A stretch of 39,399 nt of DNA from an uncultured Deferribacteraceae bacterium (GTDB taxonomy: Bacteria; Chrysiogenota; Deferribacteres; CAMZNJ01): positions 1 to 39,399 of the forward strand of contig CAMZNJ010000037.1 in NCBI GenBank assembly GCA_947313825.1, given 5' to 3'. This document shows, one piece after another, positions 1-35,607 of the stretch (position 1 is its first letter; each line of letters starts with the position of its first letter). Position numbers and translations under genes: made by a program. A model generated the notes under the pieces. That model did no database searches and was not told where the DNA came from. It saw only the letters and a list, made by a program, of their open reading frames with translations.

Positions 1-2
1 GT

Positions 3-206
3 GCTCACGGTGCTGGCGGTGCTGGCGGTTCTGGCGGTGCTGGCGGTTCTGGCGGTGTTGGCGGTTCTGGCGGTGCTGGCGGTGCTGGCGGTTCTGGCGG
101 TGTTGGCGGTGCTGGCGGTGCTGGCGGTGCTCACGGTGCTGGCGGTTCTGGCGGTGCTCACGGTGCTGGCGGTGCTCACGGTTCTGGCAACGCTCCATCC
201 ATCACC
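3..206 (+). repeat. Gly-rich tandem repeat, in frame with sfsA
   Basis: The first ~190 bases are a degenerate 9-bp repeat of the form GGT-(G/T)CT-GGC, with interspersed GCT-CAC-GGT units. Read in the sfsA frame (codons starting at base 3) it encodes Gly-Ala-Gly/Gly-Ser-Gly/Gly-Val-Gly and Ala-His-Gly units with no stop, and continues without a break into SfsA. The open frame runs off the left edge of the window. It may therefore be an N-terminal extension of SfsA, the tail of a fused upstream gene, or a non-coding array that happens to be open. A Leu-Ala-Val reading in another frame is a by-product of the repeat. Confidence 0.85.
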
Positions 207-914
207 ATGCCCGCACCCTATGGACAACTGCACCAAGGTACCCTCGTTCGTCGATACAAACGGTTTTTGGTGGACGTAATAGATGAAAACGGCGTGCTTA
301 CAACCATGTTCATCCCCAACACGGGCTCCATGAAAACACTGCTCAACGACGAGGCACCCGTTTTGTACTCCAAGTCCAACAACCCTAAGCGGAAGTATCC
401 GTTTACTTTGGAGTACATTCATGCCCATGGCGAGTGGATAGGCACAAACACCATGCTGACCAATGATATTGCTGAGTACGCCATACGTGGCAACTTGGTG
501 AGCTGTTTTGGTGTAGTGAAATCTGTTCGCCGCGAATACACTTACGCCAACAGTCGCGTAGACTTTCTTCTGGAGACGGAGCAATACCCGTTGCCTGTGC
601 TGATGGAGGTTAAAGGTGTGTCCATGTTTCATAATGGTGTAGCCTCGTTCCCCGATGCGGTTACCGTGCGTGGGCTCAAGCACCTCAATACCCTCGTTAA
701 GTCCTTGAGTGATGGCTACAGGGCTGCGAACCTTTACCTTATCAAGGGGGGCGTTTGCAAATTTGAAGTTGCCTCTGATATCGACGCAAAATATGCTGAG
801 GGGTTCCAAAGAGCGATGGATGCTGGTGTTGTAATGGTATTCGTATCTTCCCGTTTGGATGACGCCACAGGGGGTATTGTTTTGACTTCATGCGAGTCGC
901 CATTTTCGTCGTAA
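207..914 (+). CDS. sfsA: SfsA family DNA-binding protein / predicted nuclease
   Basis: This 235-residue protein matches the usual SfsA length. It has the N-terminal signature RRYKRFLVDV (residues 15-24), then PNTGSM, and KRKYPFTLEY near 61-70, which form the OB-fold half. The C-terminal half has PD-(D/E)xK-like residues: Asp119 in SRVDF, and Glu134 and Lys136 in MEVKG. FPDAVTVRG follows. SfsA was named for sugar-fermentation stimulation in E. coli; its biochemical role is unsettled and a nucleic-acid or nuclease function is inferred from the fold. The ATG at 207 gives an N-terminus aligned with known SfsA, but there is no clear ribosome binding site before it. The frame is also open through the upstream Gly-rich repeat, so the true start could lie outside the window. 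Confidence 0.93.
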   Translation: MPAPYGQLHQGTLVRRYKRFLVDVIDENGVLTTMFIPNTGSMKTLLNDEAPVLYSKSNNPKRKYPFTLEYIHAHGEWIGTNTMLTNDIAEYAIRGNLVSCFGVVKSVRREYTYANSRVDFLLETEQYPLPVLMEVKGVSMFHNGVASFPDAVTVRGLKHLNTLVKSLSDGYRAANLYLIKGGVCKFEVASDIDAKYAEGFQRAMDAGVVMVFVSSRLDDATGGIVLTSCESPFSS

Positions 915-996
915 TATTTGGTTGCAAACAAGGTGTTTATTAAACGGTGTAGATGTGGTAAAGTTGTGTCGTAATTAGTATTTTGAGCGGTGGTTT

Positions 997-2184
997 GTGA
1001 AGTCTGTCATAGAGGCGTTTAACTTATTTATTGAACATGTTCGTGTGGAGCGTGGTGCCTCTGAGCATACTGTTCGTGCTTATACGGGGGATTTGCGTGA
1101 GCTTGCGTCGTATATTATTGGGGATGACGTTGGCATAAATGTTGTGGTCGATACCCAAGGCTACCTTCACACAGAACACGCCAGCATGGAACACGCCAGC
1201 ATGGAACACGCCAGCACAGAACACGCCAGCATGGAACACGCCAGCACAGAACATGCCGACGCAAACACACCCGCCGACGCAAACACATCCGCCGACGCAA
1301 ACACATCCGCCGACGCAAACACATCCGCCGACGCAAACACATCCGCCGACGCAAACACATCCGCCGACGCAAACACATCCGCCGACGCAAACACATCCGT
1401 GGACATAGCTCAGGTTGATGCCTATTTTCTACGCAACTTCACACCGTATCTGTCGTCGCGTAAAAATTTGTCCGACTCCAGTATCGAACGCAAAATCGCA
1501 ACAACCAAGTCCCTTTACAAGTACCTCCTTGCCACCGGAATTGTTTCCACTAATCCTGCCAAGGGGCTAAAATTCCCAAAAAAAGACAAGAAGCACCCGG
1601 AAATATTCAGTATCGACAGTATTCTGCAACTCATGAATCTGCCCGATAAGTCCAAGGCTAGCGGTTTGCGAGATGCTCTTCTCATGGATTTCATGTACTC
1701 CATGGGTGTTCGGGTATCGGAGCTGGTAAGCATGGACGTGGGGGATATCGATTTCGGTGCCATGCATATTATCATCACGGGGAAGGGGGGCAAACAGCGT
1801 ATCCTCCCCATGTTTGCGGAACATATGGAGCTTATCAACAAATACATACTCATTCGCTCGCAGATTGTGGCAAAAGGGCATCGTATCGATTCCGATTGCT
1901 TATTCATCAACAAATACGGCAAGAGGTTGTCGGATCGTAGCGTTCGAAACATTGTGGACAAATACCTCACCAAGGCGGGGCTCCCCTTGACACTGTCCCC
2001 CCACTCATTTCGCCACACCTTTGCCACACACCTACTAGAATCAGGGGCAGACATCCGCTCTATCCAAGAATTATTAGGGCACGATAGCCTCGCAACAACA
2101 GAAAAATACACACACATGAACCTCATAGCACTCCTCAAAGTGTACGACGAATCGCACCCCGCTAACGCAAAAAACACAAATTAA
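997..2184 (+). CDS. xerC: Xer-family tyrosine recombinase with internal repeat insertion
   Basis: This is a site-specific tyrosine recombinase of the XerC/XerD type, which resolves chromosome dimers at dif. The N-terminal core-binding domain starts at residue 1 and is interrupted after helix 2 by low-complexity residues 60-134 (see the separate repeat entry). It resumes at about 138. The catalytic domain is intact: Arg239 (GVRVSEL), Lys263 (TGKGGKQR), His336 and Arg339 (HSFRH), His362 (LLGHDS) and nucleophile Tyr371 (TEKYTH). Length is 395 residues against about 300 for the family, and the excess is the insertion. The start is GTG. ispG follows after 15 bp, suggesting co-transcription. Sequence alone does not separate XerC from XerD or a single-Xer system. 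Confidence 0.85.
   Translation: MKSVIEAFNLFIEHVRVERGASEHTVRAYTGDLRELASYIIGDDVGINVVVDTQGYLHTEHASMEHASMEHASTEHASMEHASTEHADANTPADANTSADANTSADANTSADANTSADANTSADANTSADANTSVDIAQVDAYFLRNFTPYLSSRKNLSDSSIERKIATTKSLYKYLLATGIVSTNPAKGLKFPKKDKKHPEIFSIDSILQLMNLPDKSKASGLRDALLMDFMYSMGVRVSELVSMDVGDIDFGAMHIIITGKGGKQRILPMFAEHMELINKYILIRSQIVAKGHRIDSDCLFINKYGKRLSDRSVRNIVDKYLTKAGLPLTLSPHSFRHTFATHLLESGADIRSIQELLGHDSLATTEKYTHMNLIALLKVYDESHPANAKNTN
1174..1398 (+). repeat. Two in-frame repeat blocks inside the Xer gene
   Basis: Block one is a 15-bp unit encoding EHAS(M/T), five copies, residues 60-84. Block two is an 18-bp unit encoding ADANT(S/P), eight copies, residues 87-134. Copies are nearly identical at the nucleotide level, implying recent expansion. 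The units keep the reading frame. The insertion falls in the loop between helices of the N-terminal DNA-binding domain. Confidence 0.95.
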
Positions 2185-2199
2185 TCTAAGGACAAATAT

Positions 2200-3255
2200 A
2201 TGGGAACACTTACAAGAAAAATACAGGTGGGAAACGTGGACGTTGGCGGCGATGCCCCTGTGTCCATTCAGTCCATGACCACCACTAACACCACCGACAC
2301 AGAAGCAACAATCGCACAAATACGAGAATTGGCGAATGCGGGGTGCGAAATAATACGGTGCAGTGTTCCGTGCAAAGATTCGGCAACATCCCTGAAACAC
2401 ATTGTCGATAACGTTGATACCCCCGTTATTGCTGACATACACTTCAGCTACTCCCTCGCAATAGCCGCCATGGAAAACGGTGCTAGTTGCATACGTATTA
2501 ACCCTGGCAACATCGGTGGTGAAAAACGTTTGGAGAGTGTTATTCATGCCGCCAAGGCAAACAACTGCTCCATTCGTATCGGCGTCAATAGTGGGTCCAT
2601 TGAAAAACATGTTTTCGAACAACACGGCATAACACCAACAGCACTAGTCGAGTCCGCACTGAGCACCTTGGCCATATTCGAGCGGAACGGATTCTACAAC
2701 ACAAAACTCTCCCTGAAAGCCTCCCACGTTCCCACAATGGTCGAAAGTTATCGCATATTCGCAAGTCGATCAGACTACCCCCTGCACCTTGGTGTAACCG
2801 AAGCGGGGCTACCCTTTGAAGGGACAGTCAAATCGGCTGTGGGTATTGGTGCTCTTCTGTTGGATGGTATCGGCAACACAATCCGCGTATCACTTACCAC
2901 CGATCCACTGGAAGAGATTGTTGTTGCCAAAGAGATACTGCACGCCTCAGGAGTACGCAGTAGCGGTGTGGAAATAATTGCCTGCCCCACATGTGCACGT
3001 GTGGAGATAGATCTGTTTACGCTGGCTCAGCAGGTGAAAGAACTAACCGTCGGGTTACCCGCGGGCATAAAGATTGCGGTTATGGGGTGCATTGTGAATG
3101 GTCCCGGTGAGGCTCGTGAGGCGGATTACGGCATTGCTGGCGGTCGAGGTTCCGGTATTTTGTTCAAGAAGGGTGTGATTTTACGCAAGGTTTCTGAGGG
3201 GGAGCTACTAGGCAGCTTGGAAGTTATGCTACGTGAGGACGGTCTTCTTAAATAG
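2200..3255 (+). CDS. ispG: 4-hydroxy-3-methylbut-2-en-1-yl diphosphate synthase (IspG/GcpE)
   Basis: IspG is the penultimate enzyme of the non-mevalonate (MEP) isoprenoid pathway. It reductively converts methylerythritol cyclodiphosphate to HMBPP with a [4Fe-4S] cluster. The 351-residue protein has the TIM-barrel start (VSIQSMTTTNTTDT, about 22-35), the IRINPGNIG segment (about 98-106), and the cluster ligands Cys262 and Cys265 (CPTC), Cys297 (MGCIVNGPGE) and Glu304. Length and motifs match the two-domain bacterial form. AAGGA lies about 8 bp before the ATG. It follows the Xer gene by 15 bp. Its stop codon is embedded in the first copy of the downstream repeat array. Confidence 0.97.
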   Translation: MGTLTRKIQVGNVDVGGDAPVSIQSMTTTNTTDTEATIAQIRELANAGCEIIRCSVPCKDSATSLKHIVDNVDTPVIADIHFSYSLAIAAMENGASCIRINPGNIGGEKRLESVIHAAKANNCSIRIGVNSGSIEKHVFEQHGITPTALVESALSTLAIFERNGFYNTKLSLKASHVPTMVESYRIFASRSDYPLHLGVTEAGLPFEGTVKSAVGIGALLLDGIGNTIRVSLTTDPLEEIVVAKEILHASGVRSSGVEIIACPTCARVEIDLFTLAQQVKELTVGLPAGIKIAVMGCIVNGPGEAREADYGIAGGRGSGILFKKGVILRKVSEGELLGSLEVMLREDGLLK

Positions 3256-3452
3256 TCGGACGCGAATAAATCGAATAGGGCGAATAAATCGAACAGGGCG
3301 AATAGTCGGACGCGAATAAATCGAATAGGGCGAATAGTCGGACGCGAATAAATCGAACAGGGCGAATAAATCGAACAGGGCGAATAAATCGAATAGGGCG
3401 AATAAATCGAATAGGGCGAATAGTCGGGACGCGAATAAATCGAACAGTGCGG
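3253..3452. repeat. Mixed 18-bp/14-bp tandem array downstream of ispG
   Basis: The array is built from an 18-bp unit (CGAATAAATCGAA(T/C)AGGG) interspersed with a 14-bp unit (CGAATAGTCGGACG). It starts at the ispG stop codon, which lies in sequence matching the 14-bp unit (AATAGTCGGACG), and ends about 25 bp before the aroE start. The unit sizes are not multiples of three, as expected of a non-coding array. No promoter or terminator is evident inside it. Confidence 0.9.
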
Positions 3453-3475
3453 ACTAAAATGTCAAGGGGTGCTCG

Positions 3476-4420: not shown

Positions 4421-4506
4421 CGAATAGGTAGTATTTAATAGTAAAAAGCTAGCTTAGAAGTGCTGCCCCTTGAAAAAAATATTGAATATGTATAGACTAG
4501 GAAAGT

Positions 4507-6099: not shown

Positions 6100-6143
6100 C
6101 AACACACTAAACGCATGATATCACCACTAAATACACCACACCT

Positions 6144-9685: not shown

Positions 9686-11080
9686 ATGGGAACTGAATAC
9701 GGGCAGGAAATAAATACAGCCAAGCCAATACTAGCGAGAACGGAATCCGAAGACTCTATCCTGCGAAACTACTACTCAAAAACATACGCTCAGGACAAAA
9801 AAGTAGGGCTTCTCGTATTCAGGATAGGAGACGGTGTTTTTGCCATCGCAAGCCTGAAAACACAAGAAATAATACGCTCTGTGGATATCACAAGAGTTCC
9901 ACATCTTGAAAAATATATTCTGGGTATCACAAACTTGAGGGGGAAAATACTACCCATTTGCGACCTCAGACACTTCTTCGGACTAAAAAATACCATCTTC
10001 GACAGAGACACAAGGGTGATTATTGCCAAATTTAACCAAGGCTCAATCGGATTTGTAGTGGATGAAGTGGTGGATACAATTCACGTTGCTGTGTCTTCTT
10101 TGGAAAAAAATAACTCAACGGTGTCCTCGTTACAATTCGACGGGTTCATCTCAGGTATCTGCAACCATCAAGATGGTATCATATTCCTACTGAATATTCT
10201 GAAAGTTGCTGGCATTGAGTCTGCACTAGGGGAAAGCGATCCCCTTGATGACTTCTTGAATATGTTGGGGGACGACAAAAAAGGTGGTAAGGGGTTGAAA
10301 CGCTCAGGCATCACCGATGCGAGCACCACCGATGCGAGCACCACCGACGCGAGCACAAGCACAGGCATCACCGATGCGAGCACAAGCACAGGTGCCGACG
10401 ACGCGAGTGCCACCGACGCCGATGAAATGGGCATTGACGAAATGATTGCCATGGAGCTTGCTTTGCGTGAGAAGGCTATGGCGGAGCGATACCATGGCAC
10501 CGATGCGAGCACAGGCACAGGTGCCACCGACGCGAGCACAGGCACAGGTGCCACCGACGCGAGTGCCACCGACGCGAGTGCCACCGACGCTAGTGCCACT
10601 GACGCGAGCACCACCGACGCTAGTGCCGACGACGCGAGCACAAGCACAGGTGCCGACGACGCGAGCACCACCGACGCTAGTGCCACTGACGCGAGCACCA
10701 CCGACGCGAGTGCCACCGACGCAAGCACCACCGACGCGAGCACAGGCGCAGGTGCCACCGACGCGAGCACCACCGACGCAAGCACCGACGACGCAAACGC
10801 GGGTTCCGATGCAATGACCAGTGGCGAAGCCCTTTCGAAGCTATTTTCGACCTTGAACAATGAGTATGCTACCTATTTGGGCAAATCGCGGGGGGCGGAT
10901 TCTTCCACCGGTGTTGCGGAGCCTAGGGTTAATTTCAAGGAGCTTGTGGCTGTTTTTGGTATGTTGGGTTCTGGGGATATGGTTGTTGATGAGTACCCGC
11001 AGAAGTTTTATGGTGTCAATAATATTCCTCAGGATATGGGTGCATTGATCCAAATGGAGACGCGTTCGCGTTCGCGTTAG
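9686..11080 (+). CDS. CheW-domain protein with long DAST-repeat linker
   Basis: The first ~190 residues form a CheW domain: LLVFRIGDGVFAIASLKTQEI, then LGITNLRGKILPICDLRHFFGL and a second half ending FLLNILKV. CheW domains couple chemoreceptors to CheA. The rest of the 464-residue product is a long Asp/Ala/Ser/Thr-repeat linker in two blocks around a short helix (EMIAMELALREKAMAERY). It ends in a non-repetitive C-terminal segment (about 375-464) that I do not recognise. Typical CheW is about 160 residues. The start at ATG 9686 is chosen for AAGGAG 5 bp upstream. A GTG at 9626 would overlap the preceding gene. The gene ends convergently 16 bp from coaE. Confidence 0.85.
   Translation: MGTEYGQEINTAKPILARTESEDSILRNYYSKTYAQDKKVGLLVFRIGDGVFAIASLKTQEIIRSVDITRVPHLEKYILGITNLRGKILPICDLRHFFGLKNTIFDRDTRVIIAKFNQGSIGFVVDEVVDTIHVAVSSLEKNNSTVSSLQFDGFISGICNHQDGIIFLLNILKVAGIESALGESDPLDDFLNMLGDDKKGGKGLKRSGITDASTTDASTTDASTSTGITDASTSTGADDASATDADEMGIDEMIAMELALREKAMAERYHGTDASTGTGATDASTGTGATDASATDASATDASATDASTTDASADDASTSTGADDASTTDASATDASTTDASATDASTTDASTGAGATDASTTDASTDDANAGSDAMTSGEALSKLFSTLNNEYATYLGKSRGADSSTGVAEPRVNFKELVAVFGMLGSGDMVVDEYPQKFYGVNNIPQDMGALIQMETRSRSR
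10316..10800 (+). repeat. DAST-type tandem repeat in the cheW-like gene
   Basis: Two blocks (about 10316-10420 and 10502-10800) of units encoding DASTT, DASAT, DASTST and DASTGTGAT. All units are multiples of three bases. They are separated by a unique stretch encoding an acidic/helical segment. Synonymous changes (GAC/GAT, GCG/GCT, AGC/AGT) and block shuffling indicate repeated duplication. Confidence 0.95.
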
Positions 11081-11711: not shown

Positions 11712-13079
11712 TTAGTTTTTTTTCAGTTCCATGGGGTATTCTTTTTTGAGGTGTTCGATTGTTTCGTCCATGGTGTAGGTTGTTGTTGCCATTGTGATTT
11801 GTCCGTTTAGGAGAATGGTTTTGAATTGTTTGCTTGGTTGAAATCCGTGTTGGATGAGTGTGTTTCCTGTTAGTGTGAGTCCTTTTTGTCTGTTTAGGGT
11901 TGCGAGTATTTCGTCGAGTTTCGCCATATTTGTACGATTATTTTGCAGTTTGTACACCCATTTTATGTTTTCGAGTAGGTTGTAGTTTACCCAAACTTGC
12001 TCTGTTGTGAGTGGATTTTGTGTGTTTGCACATAGTTGGTAGAGGGTTCGGATTAGTTTTTGTTCGTTATTTGCCATGGAGGCGTTGCGTAGTGTTGTCA
12101 TGGGGTTGTTTTTGGGTAGGCGTATGGTGGTGCTGAAGAGTATTTCGAAGGCGTGGGGGGAGTTTTGTAGATTGCTCCACCAGCTGTCATTGTTGTTGTG
12201 ATTGTGATTGTTGTTTTCGATGGTGTTTAGGGTTTCGAGACGTATGCTTGTGCCTTCAAAAATAAGCGGTAGGATGCCATTTTTGTCCATGGCGTAGAGG
12301 GTTTGCACCATGGCTTCACGGTTGCTACTTGCAAAAATATTTCGCACCTCTTTCAGTATTCTTTCCGCGGGGATACCTTTTAGGAGGTGTTGGCTTTCGC
12401 CCATGAGGGTGCATGTGTGTGGGTGGATGCTGTAGCCCAGCGTGCTTTGGAACCGATAAGCACGCAGTACCCTTAGGGGGTCATCGGTGAGGGAGGAGGT
12501 GCTGACAACGCGAATAGTTTTGTGCAGTATGTCTTCAGGGTTGCCGATTACTGTGTTGTTCATGTCCATTGCGAGGTTGTTGATGGTGAAGTCGCGTTCG
12601 CCAAGGTCGTGCTCGATTGTTGCTCCCCGCGGCTTGGATATGTCGATGGTGATGTCGATGGTACTGTTGATGGTGCAACTTGTTGATGTGGGGAATAGTG
12701 TGTTTTGTTTGTGAGGTGTGATGTTGAGGCGTGTGTTGTCTTTGAAGTGGACACCTTTTGTGCGTAGTTTGCGTGAAACAAGCTCAGCAAATTGTAGGTA
12801 GTCTGTGTCGCTAGTGTTTTTGGTGGAGAAGGGGACGTAGTCTAAGTCGATGGTTGCGTTGTCGTCGATGTCGATGTCGATGTTGGTGTTGGTGTTGTTT
12901 GCGTTGTCATCTGTGATACCCTGACGCATGATACCCTGACGCACCATGCCTCCAACGAGGTACACCTCAAAGTTATGTTTCCTTGCAACCTGAACAACCG
13001 CTTGGTGCACAAGGTTGACGCTGTCGGGGTATGATTTCAGGTTCATGGTGTTGTGTAGGTGTTTTTTAGTTGTATTCAT
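11712..13079 (-). CDS. cca: Class II CCA-adding enzyme / poly(A) polymerase family nucleotidyltransferase
   Basis: The product belongs to the class II tRNA nucleotidyltransferase/poly(A) polymerase family. YLVGGMVRQG lies at 40-49 and the metal-binding IDLD at 77-80. Downstream are ISKPRG, the signature DLGERDFTINNLAM, and SLTDDPLRVLRAYRF with LGYSI after it. The tRNA gene in this window lacks an encoded CCA end, consistent with a need for CCA addition; poly(A) polymerase activity remains possible. Between GG and DxD, the usual short spacer is expanded by an RQGIM/RQGI duplication and an Asn/Asp/Ile-rich stretch, and the usual VRD is VRQ. GGAAAG precedes the ATG. The start overlaps recF by 14 bp. 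Confidence 0.85.
   Translation of the reverse strand: MNTTKKHLHNTMNLKSYPDSVNLVHQAVVQVARKHNFEVYLVGGMVRQGIMRQGITDDNANNTNTNIDIDIDDNATIDLDYVPFSTKNTSDTDYLQFAELVSRKLRTKGVHFKDNTRLNITPHKQNTLFPTSTSCTINSTIDITIDISKPRGATIEHDLGERDFTINNLAMDMNNTVIGNPEDILHKTIRVVSTSSLTDDPLRVLRAYRFQSTLGYSIHPHTCTLMGESQHLLKGIPAERILKEVRNIFASSNREAMVQTLYAMDKNGILPLIFEGTSIRLETLNTIENNNHNHNNNDSWWSNLQNSPHAFEILFSTTIRLPKNNPMTTLRNASMANNEQKLIRTLYQLCANTQNPLTTEQVWVNYNLLENIKWVYKLQNNRTNMAKLDEILATLNRQKGLTLTGNTLIQHGFQPSKQFKTILLNGQITMATTTYTMDETIEHLKKEYPMELKKN
12861..12898 (-). repeat. 6-bp in-frame repeats within cca active-site region
   Basis: GATGTC and GGTGTT hexamers on the plus strand encode alternating Asp-Ile and Asn-Thr on the coding strand, about residues 61-73 of Cca. 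The array lies between the GG motif and the catalytic DxD. A nearby duplication at about 12914-12945 gives the double RQGI. Confidence 0.8.
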
Positions 13080-14307
13080 GGTTGTCTTTCCGGTTTGCGT
13101 CGTTTGTGTTAAGGGGTTTGCCTGTGGTTATGGGCGTGGGCGTGGGCGAGGGCGTGGGCGAGGGCGTGGCGTGTTCGTGATTGCTGTCCATGGGTGTTGC
13201 GGCGATATGGATGTTGTGCATGTGGCTTAGGTTTGCTGATGGGTTTACCCCCGTGGCAATAACCTGAGCGTTGTGGCTACTGTCAAACATGGATAGTAAC
13301 GACTTTATTCGTCGGTTGTCCAGTCCAGCTTCAAAGTCGTCAAGGAGTATTAACGGTGTAATGCCCCGTTCGTGGCTGATTATTTGGGATATGCTTTTGA
13401 GCAGTGTGATATGGAATGCTTTCCCTTGCCCAAACGATGGGAATTTTTCGAATATTTTGCCATCTTTGCGAATATTTATGCGGTCGCGGTGTGTTCCGTA
13501 AAGTGGTGTTCCTTCGATTTTTTCCCTTTCGAGTAGGTTTGTGGTGGCTTCTGTGTTGTGGTTAGGGTCAACATTGGATGAGTACGACAGGTATATTTGG
13601 GTATGTAGATTCGGCTCTGTTATTTGTAGTGTTTCATAGATATTGGTGAGGTTTCGGTTTATCTGTTCAACAATTTTTTTGCGTCTGTGGTGAATAGTTT
13701 TTGTGATTGGTATTAGTTGGTCGTTGAGGACTTTTAGAAGTGTTTGGCTGTTGTGGGAGAGGTGTCCGTCGTTGTTTTGGATGCCATGGAGCAGGTGTCT
13801 TTTTTGGTTTAGTAGGCGGTTGTAGGTATTGAGTTCGTTGGCGTAGTTCATGTACGTGTGGAACACGATTTTGTCTAACTGTTTGCGTTTTGTGCTTTGG
13901 TCGCTGGATAGGAGGCTGTCGGTGTTTGGCGAATAGTAGATTACAGGGTTGTTGTGTAGGTGTTCCATGCTGCTGTCAACCTTTTCGCCGTTGTTTTTGA
14001 GTATCATTTCGTCTTGGTAGAATAGTGTAATGTGGTTGTCAGCACTACTGTTGCCATGGTGTTGAGGTTCGTGTTGAGGTTCGTGGTTTATGGATACTGT
14101 TACGTGGAATGACTGCTCGCCAAATTGAACAATATTTTTCAGTGTTTGTTTTTTGAATGTTCGGAGGTTTAGTGCGAGGTAGATGCTTTCGAGGATGGAT
14201 GTTTTTCCAGAACCGTTATCGCCGTAAATATATGTTTGACGTTGCAGTTGATGATTGAAAAAGGAGTGGTTGCGGAAATTCCTTATTTTAATATTATTTA
14301 CAAACAT
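13066..14307 (-). CDS. recF: DNA replication and repair protein RecF
   Basis: RecF is an SMC-like ATPase that helps load RecA at single-stranded gaps. The product has IKIRNFRNH (6-14), Walker A GDNGSGKT (29-36), the NPVIYYSPN-type segment, the ABC signature region SFGQGKAFHITLLKS and Walker B LILLDDFEAGLD. The C-terminal ~35 residues form a Ser-Pro-Thr-Pro tail made by hexamer repeats, which is not part of the usual 350-370 residue family; total length is 413. The stop overlaps the start of cca, so the two are probably translationally coupled. A plus-strand promoter for the pse operon overlaps its first codon. Confidence 0.92.
   Translation of the reverse strand: MFVNNIKIRNFRNHSFFNHQLQRQTYIYGDNGSGKTSILESIYLALNLRTFKKQTLKNIVQFGEQSFHVTVSINHEPQHEPQHHGNSSADNHITLFYQDEMILKNNGEKVDSSMEHLHNNPVIYYSPNTDSLLSSDQSTKRKQLDKIVFHTYMNYANELNTYNRLLNQKRHLLHGIQNNDGHLSHNSQTLLKVLNDQLIPITKTIHHRRKKIVEQINRNLTNIYETLQITEPNLHTQIYLSYSSNVDPNHNTEATTNLLEREKIEGTPLYGTHRDRINIRKDGKIFEKFPSFGQGKAFHITLLKSISQIISHERGITPLILLDDFEAGLDNRRIKSLLSMFDSSHNAQVIATGVNPSANLSHMHNIHIAATPMDSNHEHATPSPTPSPTPTPITTGKPLNTNDANRKDNHEYN
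13132..13169 (-). repeat. Hexamer repeat encoding RecF C-terminal tail
   Basis: GGGCGT/GGGCGA hexamers on the plus strand are read on the coding strand as Thr-Pro and Ser-Pro dipeptides near the end of RecF. They keep the frame. They lie after the conserved ATPase motifs and so are probably tolerated. Confidence 0.9.
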
Positions 14308-15371: not shown

Positions 15372-16628
15372 ATGGACAAAAAAATACGATACGGTGAACA
15401 CAATGTACAACCAGATGACGTAGAACGCGTTGTCAAGGTGCTAAACTCGAACTACCTCACGCAAGGTCCCGTTGTAGAAGAGTTTGAACGGGAAATATGC
15501 AAAACAGTGGGTGCCAAGTATGCTGTTGTGTTCAGTAGTGGTACGGCAGCGTTGCATGCCGCCTATTTTGCACTGGGGCTAGGCAACGTGGACAGCTGTG
15601 GCGATGACCACGACCATGACCACGACCACGACCATGACCACGACCACCAACAACACAAAACACTACTAACAACACCAATCACATTTGCCGCAACAGCAAA
15701 TGCAGCACGATACTTGGGGGCTGATGTTGAGTTTTGCGACGTTGACACAAATGCCAACATGGACATTCACACACTAGAAAAGTACATTACGCCACAAACA
15801 GCAATTATCGCACCCGTACACTACGCTGGACTAGCATGTGGTATGCCTGAAATTGCCGAAATTGCAAAACGATACTCGTTAGGCGTTGTGGAAGATGCTA
15901 GCCACGCACTAGGGGGAAGTTACGGTAACGCTGGTAACGCTGGTAACGCTGGTGTTGCCGAAAATATGGTGGGGAACTGCAAGTACTCAGACATTACAAC
16001 CTTCAGCTTCCACCCGATCAAACACATTGCTGCCGGCGAAGGGGGAGCAGCAACCACCAACAACCAACACCTTTACGAAAAAATGAAGCTTTTTCGCAAC
16101 CACGGAATACAAAAGGAAAACTTTGTTAATCAACCCCACGGTGCTCACTACATGGAGATGGTGGAGCTGGGGTACAACTATCGCATGAGCGAACTGCACG
16201 CTGCCCTTGGAGTTTCACAACTGGGAAGGCTACAAAAGAATATGGAGAGTAGACGCAGTATTGCTGAGTTTTATGCCCGTGCCTTGATGGGCAACCCCAT
16301 GGTAACGCTGCCAACGTCATGTACGCACACGGATAACCTAAACAACGGACATGCATGGCACCTTTTCCCCATTACACTACACAGTAGTATCAGTCGAGAG
16401 CGTGTTGTGAACTACATGCACGCCCGTGGAGTAGGGGTACAAGTGCTCTACATCCCTGTGTACATGCACCCTTACTACCGAAAACATGGACACAAATCAA
16501 CAACTAGACCTGTGGCGGAAAAGTTTTACGCAAGGTCGCTTACCCTGCCCATTCACACCAATCTTTCCCAAGATGACCTCGTGTTTATCGTGGAAACATT
16601 AGTTGAAGGTATCGGGCACAGCTCGTAG
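15372..16628 (+). CDS. pseC: UDP-4-amino-4,6-dideoxy-N-acetyl-beta-L-altrosamine transaminase, PseC
   Basis: This PLP-dependent DegT/DnrJ/EryC1-family aminotransferase performs the second step of pseudaminic acid synthesis with glutamate as donor. Features include NSNYLTQGPVVEEFE (about 28-42), FSSGTAALHAA, VEDASHALGG and FSFHPIKHIAAGEGG with PLP lysine Lys217. Two in-frame repeats interrupt it: (Asp-His)x7 at residues 79-92 and Gly-Asn-Ala x3 at about 185-193. Length is 418 against about 380 for the family. It is the second gene of the pse operon, adjacent to pseB and probably translationally coupled. Confidence 0.9.
   Translation: MDKKIRYGEHNVQPDDVERVVKVLNSNYLTQGPVVEEFEREICKTVGAKYAVVFSSGTAALHAAYFALGLGNVDSCGDDHDHDHDHDHDHDHQQHKTLLTTPITFAATANAARYLGADVEFCDVDTNANMDIHTLEKYITPQTAIIAPVHYAGLACGMPEIAEIAKRYSLGVVEDASHALGGSYGNAGNAGNAGVAENMVGNCKYSDITTFSFHPIKHIAAGEGGAATTNNQHLYEKMKLFRNHGIQKENFVNQPHGAHYMEMVELGYNYRMSELHAALGVSQLGRLQKNMESRRSIAEFYARALMGNPMVTLPTSCTHTDNLNNGHAWHLFPITLHSSISRERVVNYMHARGVGVQVLYIPVYMHPYYRKHGHKSTTRPVAEKFYARSLTLPIHTNLSQDDLVFIVETLVEGIGHSS
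15606..15647 (+). repeat. (Asp-His)x7 codon repeat in pseC
   Basis: Seven tandem GAC-CA(C/T) hexamers encode alternating Asp-His, inserted between the FALGLGN helix and the conserved TTPITFAATANA strand. Alternating Asp/His is a potential divalent-metal-binding sequence, although chance slippage is sufficient to explain it. Confidence 0.95.
15924..15950 (+). repeat. Gly-Asn-Ala x3 codon repeat in pseC
   Basis: Three identical copies of the nonamer GGTAACGCT encode Gly-Asn-Ala in a surface loop following the ASHALGGSYG motif. This is a second, independent in-frame expansion in the same gene. Confidence 0.9.
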
Positions 16629-18585: not shown

Positions 18586-18920
18586 GGTGTGTGCACACAC
18601 GCTCACGCACACACACGCTCACGCACACACACGCTCACGCACACGCACACACGCTCGCACGCACACGCTCATACGCTCACGCTCACACGCACACGCACTC
18701 ACACGCTCACCACGCTCACACACGCACTCACGCACACGCTCACACGCACACACACGCACTCACGCACACGCACATACGCTCATACGCTCACACGCACACT
18801 CACGCACACGCTCATACGCACACGCTCACACGCTCACACGCACACACGCACACACACGCACTCACGCACACGCTCACACGCACTCACACGCTCACCACGC
18901 ACACCACGCACGCACACACG
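18586..18920. repeat. CACACG/CGCTCA repeat array between pseG and galE
   Basis: About 335 bp consist almost only of CACACG, CGCACA, CGCTCA and occasional CATACG and CACCACG words, filling the whole gap between two convergent genes. Long tracts alternate pyrimidine and purine. The plus-strand transcript would be C-rich, G-poor and unstructured. All three plus frames stay largely open and would encode Thr/His/Ala/Arg low-complexity peptides. There is no ribosome binding site or conserved segment, so I treat this as non-coding. Confidence 0.9.
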
Positions 18921-18921
18921 C

Positions 18922-21783: not shown

Positions 21784-23310
21784 TTAGCCCCCTGACTTAC
21801 ACTTATTGTTGGTGGGGATTCGTGCCTGCCCCTTAGGGAGGGTATCGTCGATAGTAGCAGTAGCAGTAGCAGTAGCAGTAGCAGTAGCAGGAGCAGTGGC
21901 AGTGGCAGTGGCAGTTCCAGTGGTTGCCTCGGAACCACCGTCCAAGTCGTCAAGGGATGGCACTGAGCCGTCGAAATCGTGTAGAACCGTGGAGATATTG
22001 GTCTTATTGACAAAAAGGTAAACCTCGTCCCCCTCCTGAAATACGTAAGAGCCGTCGGGAACCCAAACATTATCCCCACGCTTGACACACAGAACAATAA
22101 CATTTTTGTGCCTGAAACGGTACAGTGGTTCGTTGAGGAGGCGGTAGTTGCTGTGCACGGTAACGGCGACAACCTCTGCACGGGTATCGAAAACGGAATA
22201 CACATCTTTGACACTTCGCGACTGACGCACAATCTGCGTAATGGATGTAACCAACGCACTAGAAGGGTTAATGAGGGCATCGATACCCATTTCCGAGGCG
22301 ATGTTGGCATAGTTTTGTTTGCTAACGCGGGAAATGCTCCGTTTGACGCCGAGGGTTTTGGCATAGTGGGCAACAAGTATGTTGAATTCCTCGTTATCGG
22401 TAACGCAAATAATGGCATCAGCTTTGTGAATGCCTATCTCTTCGAGAACCGATTGATCAGAGCCGTCCCCATGGATGACCAGAGCTTTGGGGAGTTGTCT
22501 GTTGACACGCTTGCAAACGTCAAGGTCGGTATCGATTAAGGAGATGTGGAGCCCTCTATCGATGAGTATTTTCGCGGTGGTAACACCAACATTGCCCGCA
22601 CCGATGATAACAATATTACGTAGTTTGCGTCGGCTAATGCCTAGTTTTTTGTAGAGTTGTCGGAGGGCTTTGTCGGTGCCAGCGACGTAAACGTGTGAGC
22701 CGGATTCGATAACGTATTCGCCGTTGGGGATGATGAGGTTTTCGTGGTTGTCGAGAACACCGGCGATTACGAAGTCTTCGTCCATGAGTTGGCGGATACG
22801 TTTGACTGTTCTGCCGTTGAAGAATGATTGGTAGTTGATGAAGATGTCGCGGAGTTGTACCTTGCCGCCCACGAGGTTGATGAGGGCACTGCACCCCCCT
22901 TCTTGAATAATATTGGCGATGTATGTGCCTGTTTCTGTTTCGGTATTGATTATCCTGTCAATGCCTTCGATGATGTTGGCGTTGACGGATCCTGAGAGGT
23001 ATGCCACGGATTTTACGGTGGCGATTTTTTGTGGTATGTTGAATGCTTGGTGCATGAATATGCACGAGATGATGTTCATTTCGTCGTCGTCGGTGATGGA
23101 GATGAATATGTCGGATTCGTCTAGGTTGTTTTCTTTCATGAGGTCGATGTCGGTTGCGAGCCCTTCCACTGTGGAGCAGTCGAGTCGTTGGGAGATTACT
23201 TTGAGTCGATCGGCGTTCGAGTCAACGATGGTAACGTCCACGCCATCACCGACTAGTTTGTTGGCGACGTCGATGCCTATGTCTGTTGAGCCAAAGATAA
23301 CTGCTTTCAT
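21784..23310 (-). CDS. trkA: Trk potassium uptake regulator TrkA
   Basis: TrkA is the cytoplasmic NAD(H)/nucleotide-binding gating subunit of Trk. It has two RCK (TrkA-N/TrkA-C) modules. The first Rossmann motif is GSTDIG (7-12) and the second GAGNVG (237-242). Each is followed by a TrkA-C segment (about 150-220 and 370-450). The last ~60 residues are a low-complexity Thr/Ala tail created by a hexamer repeat, absent from the family, giving 508 residues against about 450. trkH follows directly. A strong promoter lies about 65 bp upstream. Confidence 0.92.
   Translation of the reverse strand: MKAVIFGSTDIGIDVANKLVGDGVDVTIVDSNADRLKVISQRLDCSTVEGLATDIDLMKENNLDESDIFISITDDDEMNIISCIFMHQAFNIPQKIATVKSVAYLSGSVNANIIEGIDRIINTETETGTYIANIIQEGGCSALINLVGGKVQLRDIFINYQSFFNGRTVKRIRQLMDEDFVIAGVLDNHENLIIPNGEYVIESGSHVYVAGTDKALRQLYKKLGISRRKLRNIVIIGAGNVGVTTAKILIDRGLHISLIDTDLDVCKRVNRQLPKALVIHGDGSDQSVLEEIGIHKADAIICVTDNEEFNILVAHYAKTLGVKRSISRVSKQNYANIASEMGIDALINPSSALVTSITQIVRQSRSVKDVYSVFDTRAEVVAVTVHSNYRLLNEPLYRFRHKNVIVLCVKRGDNVWVPDGSYVFQEGDEVYLFVNKTNISTVLHDFDGSVPSLDDLDGGSEATTGTATATATAPATATATATATATIDDTLPKGQARIPTNNKCKSGG
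21853..21916 (-). repeat. GCAGTA hexamer repeat encoding TrkA C-terminal tail
   Basis: GCAGTA, drifting to GCAGTG, is repeated about ten times on the plus strand and is read on the coding strand as alternating Thr-Ala dipeptides. It keeps the reading frame. It lies after the second TrkA-C domain. Confidence 0.95.
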
Positions 23311-23444: not shown

Positions 23445-23535
23445 GGATGCACATGCATACGCACGCACACTCATACGCACGCACGCACACTCATACGCAC
23501 GCACATGCATGGATGCACATGCATACGCACGCACG
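23445..23535. repeat. CACGCACACTCATACG-type array downstream of pyrE
   Basis: This short array has a 20-bp period (GCACGCACACTCATAC plus GCAC) flanked by two copies of a 24-bp segment 66 bp apart, each beginning GGATGCACATGCATACGCAC. Word composition resembles the array between pseG and galE. It lies between the trkA promoter and the 3' end of pyrE, with no coding content. Confidence 0.85.
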
Positions 23536-25507: not shown

Positions 25508-25571
25508 AAATGTTAACTCCGTGCGGGTTGGGAAGAGTTGTGTTTCCTAATTTAGTGTAGCTATTTTGTAT

Positions 25572-26666
25572 CTATTTTGTAGCTGTTTTCTTTTGTTTTG
25601 TTTCGTTGAGTAGGTAGTCCATGATAGCCATGCGGAGGGCAACACCATTGCTAACTTGGTCAAAAATTCGTGATTTGGTGTGTGCAATGGCATCGTCGTC
25701 CATTTCTAGACTACGGTTGACCGATCCGGGGTGCAAAATTATGGTGTTATCGCCAAGCATGTGCAGGTTGCGGCTATTGAGCCCGTAAAAGCGGTTGTAC
25801 TCCTCAGCTGAAGGGATACTCATGCTACCTTTGCCATACTGTTGCTCTATCTGGACACGGAGCATCATCACAACGTTGGCACCTTCTAAAGCAGAGGCAA
25901 CGGTGCGGGCAACTTTGACGCCGTGAGCTGTGTATCTGGGCAGGAGAGTGTTGGGTCCAAATATGGTAATGTTGCACCCCAAGGCACTTAAAAGCTTGAT
26001 GTTGCTTTTGGCTACGCGGGAGGTGGCAATGTTGCCGATGATTGAGACGCGAAGCCCCTTGAATTTGGAAATGTCGGTGATGCTGTTACTTTTTTGCAGG
26101 CTAGTGATGTGTTCCGATATGGTGTAGGCATCGAGAAGAGCCTGAGTGGGGTGCCCATTGTGCCCATCGCCAGCGTTGATAACGTGTGCAGAGGTTCGTT
26201 GGGCAATCTGCTCCACAGCACCAGCATGGGGGTGGCGAATGCAGTACAGGTCAACACCCATGGCATCTAAAGTGGAGATGGTGTCGAAAATTGATTCGTG
26301 CTTAGAGGCACCAGACTTGCTGATGGAAAAATTAATTACGTCGGCATCAAGGCGTTTGGCAGCAACTTCGAACGACACTCGCGTACGAGTTGATTTCTCG
26401 AAAAAAAGATTAACAACAGTGCGACCACGTAGGTTAGGGAGTTTTTTGACAGTTTGGTTATTTAAAAATTTGAAATCAGCAGCTTTAGAAAAAAAATGCT
26501 GAATGAGGGTGGGGTAAATTACCTCAGAGGTGGTATTTAGAATATGGGGGGGGAGGGTAAGGTTGGGAACAGAGATAAAATCAGCCAAAAACTCAGGCTC
26601 GCTAGAGGCGTAACCTTGCGGGGGCTCATGCCCATAATTGTGCTGATGTTGCTGTTCGTCTTGCAT
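25572..26666 (-). CDS. pyrB: Aspartate carbamoyltransferase catalytic chain
   Basis: PyrB condenses carbamoyl phosphate and aspartate. The carbamoyl phosphate loop FFEKSTRTRVSFE (about 88-100), the KSGASKHES loop, GHPTQALLDAYT and LHPGSVNRS (usually HPGPVNRG) are all visible. The ATG at 26666 has GGGAGG about 9 bp upstream and yields 364 residues, with about 40 extra N-terminal residues rich in Gln/His. An in-frame ATG at 26744 would add 26 more but almost coincides with the predicted transcription start, so I reject it. No pyrI regulatory-chain gene is nearby. Confidence 0.92.
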   Translation of the reverse strand: MQDEQQHQHNYGHEPPQGYASSEPEFLADFISVPNLTLPPHILNTTSEVIYPTLIQHFFSKAADFKFLNNQTVKKLPNLRGRTVVNLFFEKSTRTRVSFEVAAKRLDADVINFSISKSGASKHESIFDTISTLDAMGVDLYCIRHPHAGAVEQIAQRTSAHVINAGDGHNGHPTQALLDAYTISEHITSLQKSNSITDISKFKGLRVSIIGNIATSRVAKSNIKLLSALGCNITIFGPNTLLPRYTAHGVKVARTVASALEGANVVMMLRVQIEQQYGKGSMSIPSAEEYNRFYGLNSRNLHMLGDNTIILHPGSVNRSLEMDDDAIAHTKSRIFDQVSNGVALRMAIMDYLLNETKQKKTATK

Positions 26667-26956: not shown

Positions 26957-29146
<2,190 letters not shown>

Positions 29147-29192: not shown

Positions 29193-29254
29193 GCAGGCAA
29201 CTCGGCACGTTTGGCTCGGCACGTTTGGCAAGCAGGCAACTCGGCTCGGCAAAC
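29193..29254. repeat. Short repeats downstream of ligA
   Basis: A 14-bp unit, CTCGGCACGTTTGG, occurs twice in tandem (29201-29214, 29215-29228), flanked by two copies of GCAGGCAACTCGGC (29193-29206, 29232-29245). It lies about 50 bp after the ligA stop and is non-coding. Confidence 0.8.
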
Positions 29255-30840: not shown

Positions 30841-30896
30841 AAATACTTGCAAATACTTAACAAGTTGAAATAAAATAAACCATCGAGCTGAAATAC

Positions 30897-30923: not shown

Positions 30924-30950
30924 AACCTCACGTAAAAGGTGGTGCTTGTT

Positions 30951-31643: not shown

Positions 31644-31650
31644 GTGGCGG

Positions 31651-31745
31651 GAGCGTCGGTGCGTGGAGGCGTGTGCTGAGTTGTGCAGGAGCGTCGGTGC
31701 GTGGAGGCGTGTGCTGAGTTGTGCAGGAGCGTCGGTGCGTTTAGG
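31651..31745. repeat. 38-bp tandem repeat downstream of DUF4336 gene
   Basis: A 38-bp unit starting GAGCGTCGGTGCGTGGAGGC is present at 31651, 31689 and 31727 (about 2.5 copies). The copies look identical by eye. It starts 7 bp after the DUF4336 stop codon. Confidence 0.95.
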
Positions 31746-31755
31746 CGTGTTCGGG

Positions 31756-31888
31756 CGTACCAACCTCGCCAAGGCGTACCAACCTCGCGAAGCCGTGCCA
31801 ACCTCGCTAAGTCGTGCCAACCTCGCTAAGTCGTACCAACCTCGCTAAGTCGTGCCAACCTCGCTAAGCCGTACCAACCTCGCTAGCC
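31756..31888. repeat. 19-bp tandem repeat ending in the DUF1015-like gene's stop
   Basis: Seven copies of a 19-bp unit, CGT(A/G)CCAACCTCGCTAAG(T/C), lie head to tail. In the last copy the sequence CTAG at 31883-31886 supplies the stop codon (complement TAG) of the minus-strand gene. Plus-strand RNA would be rich in pyrimidine-C dinucleotides. The unit is unrelated to the adjoining 38-bp array. Confidence 0.95.
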
Positions 31889-33154: not shown

Positions 33155-33382
33155 TCTCGAATAACATTAATAGTACTACTGCCGGCAAGACGAGGGTAAA
33201 AATAGTGCAAGTTATTTTATATCAAGCAATATAGCTGGTGGTGCTTCCTAGTGTGTAGTATGAGTTGTTCACATTGGCACAAGTTATCTATGCTAGAGTC
33301 TTGTAAAAATTTCTTTTCAAAGTCCTTGCTTTACAGGTGTTTCGTCCCTTTTATCTAAGAGGTATCTTTGCACCTTCCTGCC

Positions 33383-33411
33383 ATAATATACCTTAATATT
33401 TATATTGTAAA
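33383..33411 (-). promoter_or_regulatory. Promoter candidate for the DUF1015-like gene
   Basis: On the minus strand TTTACA (complement of 33406-33411), a 17-bp spacer and TATTAT (complement of 33383-33388) predict a leader of roughly 220 nt before the start at 33154. Confidence 0.5.
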
Positions 33412-33508
33412 GTATTAAAATTTACTTTCTTGTAACTACTTTATGACACAATCCGTTAAAGCACTTTTGTTGTTGGTTGTGAGTTATTCGTTATTTTCAA
33501 ACTTTTAC

Positions 33509-33538
33509 TTGACAATGAATGCATCACAGTGCTACAAT
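33509..33538 (+). promoter_or_regulatory. Promoter of ffh
   Basis: Perfect TTGACA (33509-33514), an 18-bp spacer and TACAAT (33533-33538) form a strong sigma-70-type promoter. The start would be near 33545, leaving an untranslated leader of about 215 nt that contains the 21-bp repeat. Confidence 0.65.
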
Positions 33539-33678
33539 TGTCTAAATTTGAATATTGTCGCCGTGGATTGCGTTGAGATATTGATGTATTGTTTCTGCCT
33601 ATAGTTCTATAATTAGTGCTATAATTCTATTTTCAATAGAGTATACTTGGGTGGTTGTCGATATTAATGTCCAACTAG

Positions 33679-33741
33679 TTGCTGTATTAAATGGTATGAT
33701 TGCTGTGTTAAGCGGTATGATTACTGTATTAGTCAGTAGTT
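33679..33741. repeat. 21-bp tandem repeat in the ffh leader
   Basis: Copies start at 33679, 33700 and 33721, each beginning TT(G/A)CTGT(A/G)TTA; the first two end GGTATGA and the third is partial. It lies 20-80 bp upstream of the ffh ATG, inside the predicted 5' leader. It is the only array in the window placed upstream of a gene rather than within a gene or just downstream of a stop codon. Confidence 0.85.
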
Positions 33742-33759
33742 CTTGGTTAGAGGTTTATT

Positions 33760-35607
33760 ATGTTTGCGACACTTGGGAAAAGGCTTTCTAACGCCTTTTC
33801 TACCATAGGAAGTGCTCAGAGGTTGTCCGAAGACACCCTGCATCAAGCTGTAAGTGAAGTTCGAAAAGCTTTGCTCGAAGCTGATGTTAATTACAATGTT
33901 GTAAAAGCACTCACACAAAATATTGAGGAACGCATTAACGCTGCATTGACTGTGTCGCCGGCGGTATCGTCGACAGACGCATTACCCCGTAGCGATGTTG
34001 ATGGCTCCCTAGCATCCTCACCTCTCAGTGGCGTCGGTGGCGTTGCAACATCATCCCAATTAGGTCAGCTGTCCTCCAAGATTACCCTGCACCCAAAAAG
34101 TAGCGGTGCCTCCAAAAACTTACTCCCCCTCCCGTCGTCTTCCTCCCTCGAAGAACAATTTATCGCAGTTTTCCGTGAAGAGCTCCTGAAACTACTCAGT
34201 GGTGGTGCTGGTGCTCATGGTGGTGCTGGTGCTCATGGTGCTAGGGATGACGCACCACTCTCACGCTCAGGCTCAGGCTCCACGGCGAGCATTGTTGTGC
34301 CCCCTGCAGGCTCTGACCCAACAACAATACTCCTCTTAGGGCTCCAAGGTAGTGGTAAAACCACCGCGGCAGGGAAGATAGCACACATATTATCAACACC
34401 ATCCCTGCTAAATAACAGCAACTCAGCACCAATCGAAGCAAAGGACGTCCTCCTTGTGGGGTGCGATACCCATCGCCCTGCAGCACGGGAACAGTTGCGA
34501 ATACTGTCCGAACGCGTTGGGGCAGGCTTCTTCACGCTCCCATCCCCTGAAGAAAGTGGAGAGCAGAGCAACCACCATAACCAAGAATACCTATCCACTG
34601 GCATAGCCTTGGCGGGCTTGGAACACGCCAAAGACAACGGCTACAGGGTTGTTGTTCTCGACACCGCAGGACGCACACATGCCGACAAAGAACTAATGGA
34701 CGAGCTTGATCATATGGTCAAAACCTTGCCACAACTAGACTACCACGTCCTCGTTGCTGATGCCATGCTTGGGCAACGTGGAGTCGAAGTTGCAACAGTG
34801 TTTAACGATTCCGTTGGCGTTTCAGGGGTAGTGCTATCCAAGTCCGACAGTGATGCCAAAGGTGGTATTGCACTGTCGATTAATTATGTTACCGGTGTGC
34901 CCATATTCTACATAAGCGATGGTGAGCGGATTGAAGACATCTCTGTTTTCCATGCAGAACGCCTTGTAGACAGGCTCCTAGGGCGTGGCGACCTCCTTAG
35001 CTTGGCGGATAAAGTTCAGAGCGTCCAAGGTGCTCCCGATGAAAAAGATGCCCAACGTATTATGCGTAGCGGTATGAACTTCAATGACCTATTGACACAA
35101 ATGAAAACCATGCGTAAGATGGGTGGTGTGGCTTCCATGATGAAGCTACTGCCGGGGATGGGAGGCGGTAGTATGGGCGAAGCTGCCAAGATGGCTAGCT
35201 CTCCCGAAGCAAAAAAACGACTGAAAACCACCGAAGCCATTATTCAGTCCATGACACCCGAAGAACGACAAGATTACAAGATCCTCAATGGATCGCGAAG
35301 AAGACGCATTGCCAAAGGTTCTGGTGTCAAGGTGTCCGAAATTAATCGCCTTGTAGAACAGCTTCTCGCCATGAACAAAATGATGAAAACCATGTCGCCC
35401 GCTGTTGCCGGACTATCCAAACGTGGCAAAGGCAAACCCATGGGCAAGAAAAAAGGTCGTCGACAGAAAAATAACCACACAAGACCCAACAACATGCAGG
35501 AGTTAGGCGGACTAACACTACCCAAAAATCTGAATAACCTAAACCTGAACGACCTAAATTTGAACGATTTAAATTTGAACGACTTAAATAAATTTATAAA
35601 ACCGTAA
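33760..35607 (+). CDS. ffh: Signal recognition particle protein Ffh with large insertions
   Basis: Ffh is the SRP54 GTPase that binds signal sequences with SRP RNA and docks with FtsY. The N domain starts at MFATLGKRLSNAF and resumes at EEQFIAVFREELLKLL (131-146) after an insertion of about 65 residues. A second insertion (about 148-186), including a Gly-Ala-His repeat, precedes G1 GLQGSGKTT (194-202). CDTHRPAA, DTAGR (301-305) and a G4 motif reading SKSD (360-363; usually TKxD) follow. The methionine-rich M domain is at about 430-560 and the C-terminus is an LNLND repeat. The product is 615 residues against about 450. No strong ribosome binding site is seen. Confidence 0.93.
   Translation: MFATLGKRLSNAFSTIGSAQRLSEDTLHQAVSEVRKALLEADVNYNVVKALTQNIEERINAALTVSPAVSSTDALPRSDVDGSLASSPLSGVGGVATSSQLGQLSSKITLHPKSSGASKNLLPLPSSSSLEEQFIAVFREELLKLLSGGAGAHGGAGAHGARDDAPLSRSGSGSTASIVVPPAGSDPTTILLLGLQGSGKTTAAGKIAHILSTPSLLNNSNSAPIEAKDVLLVGCDTHRPAAREQLRILSERVGAGFFTLPSPEESGEQSNHHNQEYLSTGIALAGLEHAKDNGYRVVVLDTAGRTHADKELMDELDHMVKTLPQLDYHVLVADAMLGQRGVEVATVFNDSVGVSGVVLSKSDSDAKGGIALSINYVTGVPIFYISDGERIEDISVFHAERLVDRLLGRGDLLSLADKVQSVQGAPDEKDAQRIMRSGMNFNDLLTQMKTMRKMGGVASMMKLLPGMGGGSMGEAAKMASSPEAKKRLKTTEAIIQSMTPEERQDYKILNGSRRRRIAKGSGVKVSEINRLVEQLLAMNKMMKTMSPAVAGLSKRGKGKPMGKKKGRRQKNNHTRPNNMQELGGLTLPKNLNNLNLNDLNLNDLNLNDLNKFIKP
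34201..34242 (+). repeat. Gly-Ala-His codon repeat in ffh
   Basis: An 18-bp unit of GGT-GCT-GGT-GCT-CAT-GGT type occurs about 2.3 times between the N and G domains of Ffh. Codon usage and word content resemble the Gly-rich array ahead of sfsA at the start of the window. Confidence 0.9.
35539..35592 (+). repeat. LNLND codon repeat at the ffh 3' end
   Basis: Three copies of a 15-bp unit encode Leu-Asn-Leu-Asn-Asp (35539, 35554, 35569), followed by a partial copy, forming the last residues of Ffh before the stop. Confidence 0.9.

Follow-up and report, generated by a model that had tools for sequence, protein, structure and literature searches.

Why should the genes for some of the most ordinary proteins of a bacterium carry short tandem repeats that leave their reading frames open? 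The question is raised by a contig of 39,399 nucleotides from an uncultured Deferribacteraceae bacterium (GenBank assembly GCA_947313825.1, contig CAMZNJ010000037.1), hereafter the window, which is the whole of contig C37 of its genome (G000; 1.256 Mb in 66 contigs, estimated 86% complete). Judged from its sequence, the window comes from “Ca. Rimicarispirillum” (Deferribacterota), of which its source is a second species; these host-restricted symbionts live in the midgut of deep-sea vent shrimp and have reduced genomes of 1.25-1.36 Mb (PMC9636832). G000 was compared with a sister-species genome (G001, estimated 90% complete), the two being placed in different species because their DNA identity over aligned stretches is mostly 84-91%. 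Very probably, the arrays reflect a genus-wide, fast turnover of short tandem duplications that is pruned by strong purifying selection. One genome per species was compared, both being short-read metagenome-assembled genomes (MAGs), and every density given below refers to sampled stretches of ~619 kb (G000) and ~722 kb (G001). Arrays were called with Tandem Repeats Finder (TRF; score of at least 50, overlapping rows merged) and genes in the samples with our own codon-score script. A search of the literature found no paper on repeats in this symbiont.

The window contains 23 merged arrays, which make up 5.6% of its bases, whereas 50 dinucleotide-preserving shuffles of the window yielded 2 arrays in total. 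A preliminary description of this DNA had placed arrays in nine genes, and TRF recovered them all where described: sfsA and genes for an Xer-type recombinase and for CheW-like, Cca-like and RecF-like proteins, together with pseC, trkA, ligA, and ffh. Fifteen of the 23 arrays lie inside these genes (two each in cca, recF, pseC, ligA, and ffh), every one with a unit length divisible by three (3n units); among the seven intergenic arrays two have such units, and one further array sits on a gene edge. The coding units first listed (6, 9, 15, 18, and 27 bp) need the addition of 12 bp and of the 87/102-bp higher-order units of cheW, while all the extragenic units listed (14, 18, 19, 20, 21, and 38 bp) are present. 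Within proteins, the arrays occupy an N-terminal extension (SfsA), C-terminal tails or their vicinity (CheW-like, RecF-like, TrkA, Ffh), domain junctions (LigA amino acids (aa) 83-95 and 420-434; Ffh aa 146-161), and loops (PseC); in one gene, that of the Xer recombinase, they lie inside a domain, of the SAM-like type. The arrays of the window are the following (+ and -, strand; others unstranded):

8-188, +: sfsA, 9-bp array of ~20 copies encoding a Gly/Ala/Ser-rich N-terminal extension in frame, at the contig edge
1170-1399, +: Xer-type recombinase, 15-bp (5.6 copies) then 18-bp (8.1 copies) arrays, aa 58-135, N-terminal SAM-like domain
3251-3423: intergenic 18-bp array after ispG/gcpE; G001 has a 27-bp unit here instead
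10305-10407, +: cheW-like, 15/27-bp array in the C-terminal extension
10498-10794, +: cheW-like, 15-bp-based array with 87/102-bp higher-order units, aa 291-390
12640-12675, -: cca-like, 12-bp array, aa 135-147
12914-12943, -: cca-like, exact 15-bp duplication, aa 46-56; single copy in G001
13131-13173, -: recF-like, 6-bp array by the C-terminus (Thr-Pro/Ser-Pro)
14059-14085, -: recF-like, 12-bp array (HEPQ); an array of a 15-bp unit at the same site in G001
15606-15647, +: pseC, 6-bp array, (Asp-His)7, inserted with respect to PseC of H. pylori
15924-15953, +: pseC, 9-bp array, (Gly-Asn-Ala)3
18593-18921: intergenic CACACGC-type array between convergent genes; a different, 15-bp unit in G001
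21853-21915, -: trkA, 6-bp array, (Thr-Ala)10, by the C-terminus
23449-23534: intergenic 16/20-bp array; a different 15-bp unit in G001
25556-25589: 11-bp array over the 3′ end of a carbamoyltransferase-type gene, the only non-3n array of the window that overlaps a gene edge
27243-27278, +: ligA, 12-bp Asn-rich array between domain Ia and the adenylation domain
28255-28296, +: ligA, 6-bp array, (Ser-Asp)7, between OB fold and zinc finger; TTCCGA single copy in G001
29201-29229: intergenic 14-bp duplication; an array of an 8-bp unit in G001
31650-31750: intergenic 38-bp array
31756-31885: intergenic 19-bp array; a different unit in G001
33679-33731: intergenic 21-bp array upstream of ffh; unit and copy number identical in G001
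34195-34240, +: ffh, 18-bp array in the insert at the N-G domain junction, aa 146-161
35526-35589, +: ffh, 15-bp array (NLNDL) in the C-terminal tail; equal length in G001

The sfsA array, first described as upstream of the gene and in frame with it, is probably truly coding, since in G001 its frame extends back to an ATG just past the stop of the preceding gene.

The abundance of arrays extends over both genomes. The samples contain 329 (G000) and 414 (G001) arrays, that is 0.53 and 0.57 per kb, and 4.3 and 4.8% of bases, with units mostly of 6-40 bp. Four other Deferribacteres have 0.03-0.09 arrays per kb and Burkholderiales/Treponema loci 0.057; six further Deferribacteres genomes range from 0 to 0.25, three of a small-genome family (f8) having none in 95 kb, two having 0.10-0.11, and a low-G+C member of a Mucispirillum-like gut family (G034, family f7, loci L208-L209) having 0.25 in 40 kb. 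The mildly raised value of the latter may reflect the same trait in milder form, or else base composition. The repeat count that had been proposed as a check thus sets these half-genome samples apart from their relatives. About 23-24% of the sampled genes bear an array (102/446 in G000, 130/533 in G001), and those beyond the window include recA, mutS, and mutL. Of 743 arrays, 334 (44-46% in the two genomes) are genic; per kb, the density is still 4-5 times higher in spacers. A second TRF run with the settings of a published survey (2,7,7,50,500; PMC3287509), whose table was made with a different TRF version, returned ~880-890 rows per Mb (~500 merged) with a mean unit of 20-22 bp and a merged share of 4.0-4.4% of bases; four short contigs of G000 (C14, C23, C32, and C50), all N in the sequence used, were excluded from this count. 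In that survey, Ehrlichia ruminantium has 201 TRF arrays in 1.52 Mb, or 133 per Mb, called the highest number reported for bacteria in 2012, and E. coli about 19 and the other listed symbionts about 10-73 per Mb by our derivation from its table. At equal TRF settings, the array content found here is thus far above that of ordinary bacteria.

The reading frame is the first place where selection on these arrays can be read. Units are 3n in 149/152 coding arrays of G000 and 168/182 of G001, together 317/334 (95%), as against 64/166 and 85/211 spacer arrays, together 149/377 (40%), a value near the selection-free expectation of one third (Fisher p = 2.7e-61). The statement that coding arrays are always in frame therefore holds for the window and, across both genomes, for 95% of units. 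Since open frames define genes in the first place, such a test could be circular, and two checks were made. Spacer arrays that are open in some frame still have non-3n units in 209/355 cases (59%), and no orthologous gene was found split at an array in either genome (697 neighbouring ORF pairs). Circularity of gene calling as the source of the frame pattern was ruled out by these two results.

Between the two species the arrays have changed extensively, as judged from 160 arrays of G000 for which both flanks were found in the G001 sample. The length of the site differs at 71/81 coding sites, in 65 of these by a multiple of three, and at 71/72 spacer sites, of which only 28 differ by a multiple of three. 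Fixed copy numbers in relatives, named beforehand as an outcome that would speak against rapid duplication, are seen in the sister species at only a minority of sites. Often the unit itself has been replaced at a shared site, as at 18593-18921 (CACACGC type vs. 15 bp) and 14059-14085 (12 vs. 15 bp).

Empty sites in the sister species tell how arrays are born. Several G001 sites retain the unit of the G000 array as a single copy, namely the 18-mer of the Xer gene (a site 168 bp shorter in G001), the TTCCGA of ligA, and the 15-mer of cca; more broadly, of 26 coding arrays that G001 lacks, 19 can still be matched to the orthologous site at 80% or more, against 0 in the nulls. A unit present in single copy at the orthologous site points to local duplication as the mode of birth, whereas a spreading element predicts otherwise. 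A mobile or shared repeat that inserts itself in frame, in the manner of the Rickettsia palindromic elements, could claim a few clusters of similar units, the largest comprising 17 arrays of the GCTGGT/CAGCAC type. However, a 12-mer in common with another array is found in only 45% of arrays, as against 34-35% of random segments, and units derive from their local site; in both respects, little sharing above random and local derivation, the arrays differ from the Rickettsia type. We therefore give a spreading element next to no credence, in line with the preliminary description, which had seen no single element behind arrays that have few sequences in common.

Selection is equally legible in where the arrays are tolerated. 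Genes with an array decrease from 51% in the quartile of least conserved orthologue identity to 10% in the most conserved quartile (p = 1.3e-6), genes of the top quartile being also shorter. The emphasis first laid on essential genes thus needs tempering: housekeeping genes do carry arrays, but arrays become rarer as conservation rises. The array share of spacers is 33-39% for convergent, 12-14% for tandem, and 6% for divergent, promoter-bearing ones. Inside coding arrays, differences between units fall almost evenly over the three codon positions (4.4, 5.5, and 5.6%), whereas differences between orthologues outside arrays do not (5.7, 3.4, and 22.9%). Likewise, 296/457 single-base codon variants change the amino acid inside arrays, whereas 17082/21201 are silent between orthologues outside them. 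The corresponding dN/dS-like ratios are about 0.61 and 0.08 (own arithmetic, with 25% silent as the random expectation and no multiple-hit correction). The genome is under strong purifying selection and the interior of the arrays is near-neutral; the arrays persist despite that selection because they are located where little depends on sequence. Gene ends are favoured, with 85/313 arrays in the outer tenths of genes (expected 63), and proteins have grown, as 16/44 and 22/54 orthologues in two small sets are more than 20 aa longer than those of relatives while two per set are shorter.

These patterns also bear on the view that the repeats are kept as adaptive contingency loci, tuning protein function or varying the cell surface. 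In-frame copy number is known to have effects in TolA (PMC3477136), such effects have been suggested for Legionella (PMC2639597), and a few arrays, such as that of the ffh tail, are conserved in length. Yet arrays occur in all kinds of genes and spacers, are rarer in conserved genes, are densest in convergent spacers, where no promoter is expected, and evolve nearly free of codon constraint. Nor do they resemble frame-switching phase-variable loci, for 95% of coding units are 3n, which cannot switch a gene on or off by frame, and nearly all are at least 6 bp long. That the repeats are kept as such a contingency system is accordingly very unlikely.

A weak mismatch repair or a general relaxation of selection had been offered as possible causes, and a mutator of this sort would not be out of place in a host-restricted genome of such reduced size, all the more as MutS, MutL, and RecA themselves bear arrays. 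Both MutS and MutL are nevertheless open and retain their key motifs in the two genomes, and all nine repair genes tested were found in both species (MutS, MutL, PolA, RecJ, SbcD, SSB, RecA, UvrD/PcrA, and XseA), PolA of G000 lying only partly on a contig. Moreover, mismatch repair handles loops of 1-4 nt, and loss of mutS has no effect on the 15-bp repeats of E. coli tolA (PMC3477136), so MutS and MutL would not matter for units of the sizes seen here. Neither does the codon constraint outside arrays, together with the absence of split genes, agree with relaxed selection at large. A missing gene among the nine tested was ruled out as the cause; the missing-gene version of this explanation is largely refuted, and the explanation as a whole, repair loss and relaxed selection combined, is improbable. 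Most of the repair proteins tested have longer frames than those of relatives, e.g., RecA with 378 aa vs. about 345. A side observation concerns the SbcD-like nuclease (G000:C46:39393-40319 and G001:C34:22453-23586), which bears an in-frame insertion near residue 73 and is above the cut-off in only 4/21 Deferribacteres searched.

The preferred reading, fast duplication pruned by selection, can then be put as a sequence of steps. In “Ca. Rimicarispirillum,” direct tandem duplications mostly of 6-40 bp would arise, and gain or lose copies, at a much higher rate than in the other bacteria sampled, beginning with the duplication of whichever local sequence is present. Copies would expand and contract by slippage or by recombination between them, events that we infer because MutS and MutL are irrelevant to such units and the repair genes tested are present; in tolA, repeat contraction is helped by RecA and suppressed by UvrD (PMC3477136). 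Arrays would decay by point mutation, and new ones would replace them at the same tolerant spots. The process would be blind to reading frame in the length of its units, and purifying selection would purge nearly all frame-breaking genic arrays, as well as most arrays in conserved genes and promoter-bearing spacers, leaving in-frame low-complexity peptides in linkers, loops, and tails. Frequent local duplication with a filter for frame, as first proposed, is what the 3n contrast and the single-copy units of G001 support.

Could the assembly of short reads have created or distorted the arrays? Both genomes are MAGs, and the longest arrays (up to 447 bp) exceed a short read, so that the lengths assembled for long arrays should not be trusted. 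In addition, in contig C32 of G001 the N-terminus of CheW runs on, precisely where a Gly-rich array lies (~10272-10301, L021; window counterpart 10305-10794), into a RecO-like C-terminus, while the C-terminus of CheW lies at the right end of G001 contig C35 and the RecO-like part is the orthologue of G000:C15:2576-3517. Most likely the assembler built a chimera here by passing through similar arrays; a real exchange is the alternative. On the whole, however, two separate assemblies place arrays at shared sites but differ in their lengths and units, and most arrays fit well within a read (median 54 bp, 75% at most 101 bp); contig ends are only weakly enriched in arrays (9/55 and 7/31 against an expected 14-15%), and mis-assembly would not yield the frame and constraint patterns. 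That the arrays are an artefact therefore strikes us as very unlikely.

Several points weigh against the duplication-and-selection account or limit its reach. Length is equal at 10/81 coding sites, and neither the length nor the peptide of the ffh tail array differs between the species; since a few arrays keep their length, some may be under selection. The high rate is inferred from the divergence between two species, not from copy numbers within a population, and the genus is represented by two incomplete MAGs (86 and 90%), 49-55% of each of which was sampled. Among the nine repair genes tested in both species, no missing gene explains the rate. Finally, the arrays have a strong AC/GT strand skew that simple slippage does not predict, with a mean deviation of 0.17-0.24 vs. 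~0.09-0.10 in non-array DNA. In genes as in spacers, their G+C content exceeds that of the DNA around them, and there is little purine skew to match; the AC/GT skew correlates weakly to moderately with that of the flanks, and its orientation in spacers has no clear dependence on flanking gene order. As a tentative suggestion, on balance somewhat doubtful, a heritable defect or feature of replication outside mismatch repair might continuously make AC/GT-skewed duplications of 6-40 bp genome-wide, so that the lengths of housekeeping proteins, RecA, MutL, LigA, and Ffh among them, would vary between the cells of one host. If so, natural tandem duplications would be denser in this genome than in any other described from bacteria.

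The phenomenon is of a known general kind, that of repeat-rich symbionts and of in-frame intragenic repeats; it is far denser than the published comparators found and reaches about a quarter of genes. E. ruminantium is alike in its small host-restricted genome with very many arrays of changing copy number, and its TRF share of bases, reported as 6.3%, compares with the merged share found here at equal settings (PMC3287509). The shares are similar despite the larger number of arrays because units are short here. It differs in having 133 arrays per Mb, a mean unit of 139 bp, and a mostly non-coding location (PMC7343930), whereas here ~880 rows per Mb have units of 20-22 bp and arrays are to a large extent genic, 3n, and in housekeeping proteins; with 334/743 in genes, they are not mainly non-coding. 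The intragenic repeats of Legionella pneumophila have coding units all divisible by three and strain-variable copy number (PMC2639597), but there a whole genome provided a selected set of 26 repeats, in 23 ORFs, with other software and cut-offs, to be set beside 102/446 and 130/533 genes here. The E. coli housekeeping gene tolA bears in-frame imperfect repeats of 15-18 bp that contract at ~7e-5 independently of MutS (PMC3477136); there a single locus is concerned, here the whole genome, with replacement of units between species. Wolbachia likewise has inter- and intragenic variable-number tandem repeats that differ between strains of a symbiont, but with 11-94 TRF arrays per genome and 0.1-1.6% of bases (PMC3287509).

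The Ffh of the window (33760-35607) carries, between the N-domain helices and the G domain, a low-complexity insert of ~90 aa that is repeated only in part and is perhaps an old, decayed array; the protein has 615 and 600 aa in the two symbiont species vs. about 450-490 in other Deferribacteres with complete frames. Elsewhere in the window (36793-38076), one ORF fuses TrmD, a tRNA m1G methyltransferase, with a PF09936 SAM-dependent RNA methyltransferase domain.

For this genus, the finding means that proteins as ordinary as RecA, MutL, and Ffh contain stretches of repeats that can change between sister species with the frame almost always kept, and that proteins lengthen while the genome of the symbiont shrinks (Ffh, 615 aa vs. 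about 450 in relatives), contrary to the usual expectation of genome reduction. Here is a natural genome in which purifying selection on ubiquitous duplications can be read by frame, by gene, by type of spacer, and by region of the protein, and whose arrays map the insertion-tolerant loops of essential proteins. Mismatch repair is intact here and has no bearing on units of this length, so a comparison of the genus with its repeat-poor sister families can test which factors govern how fast minisatellites form in bacteria. The arrays are also usable as markers for tracking the transmission of an uncultured vent-shrimp symbiont.

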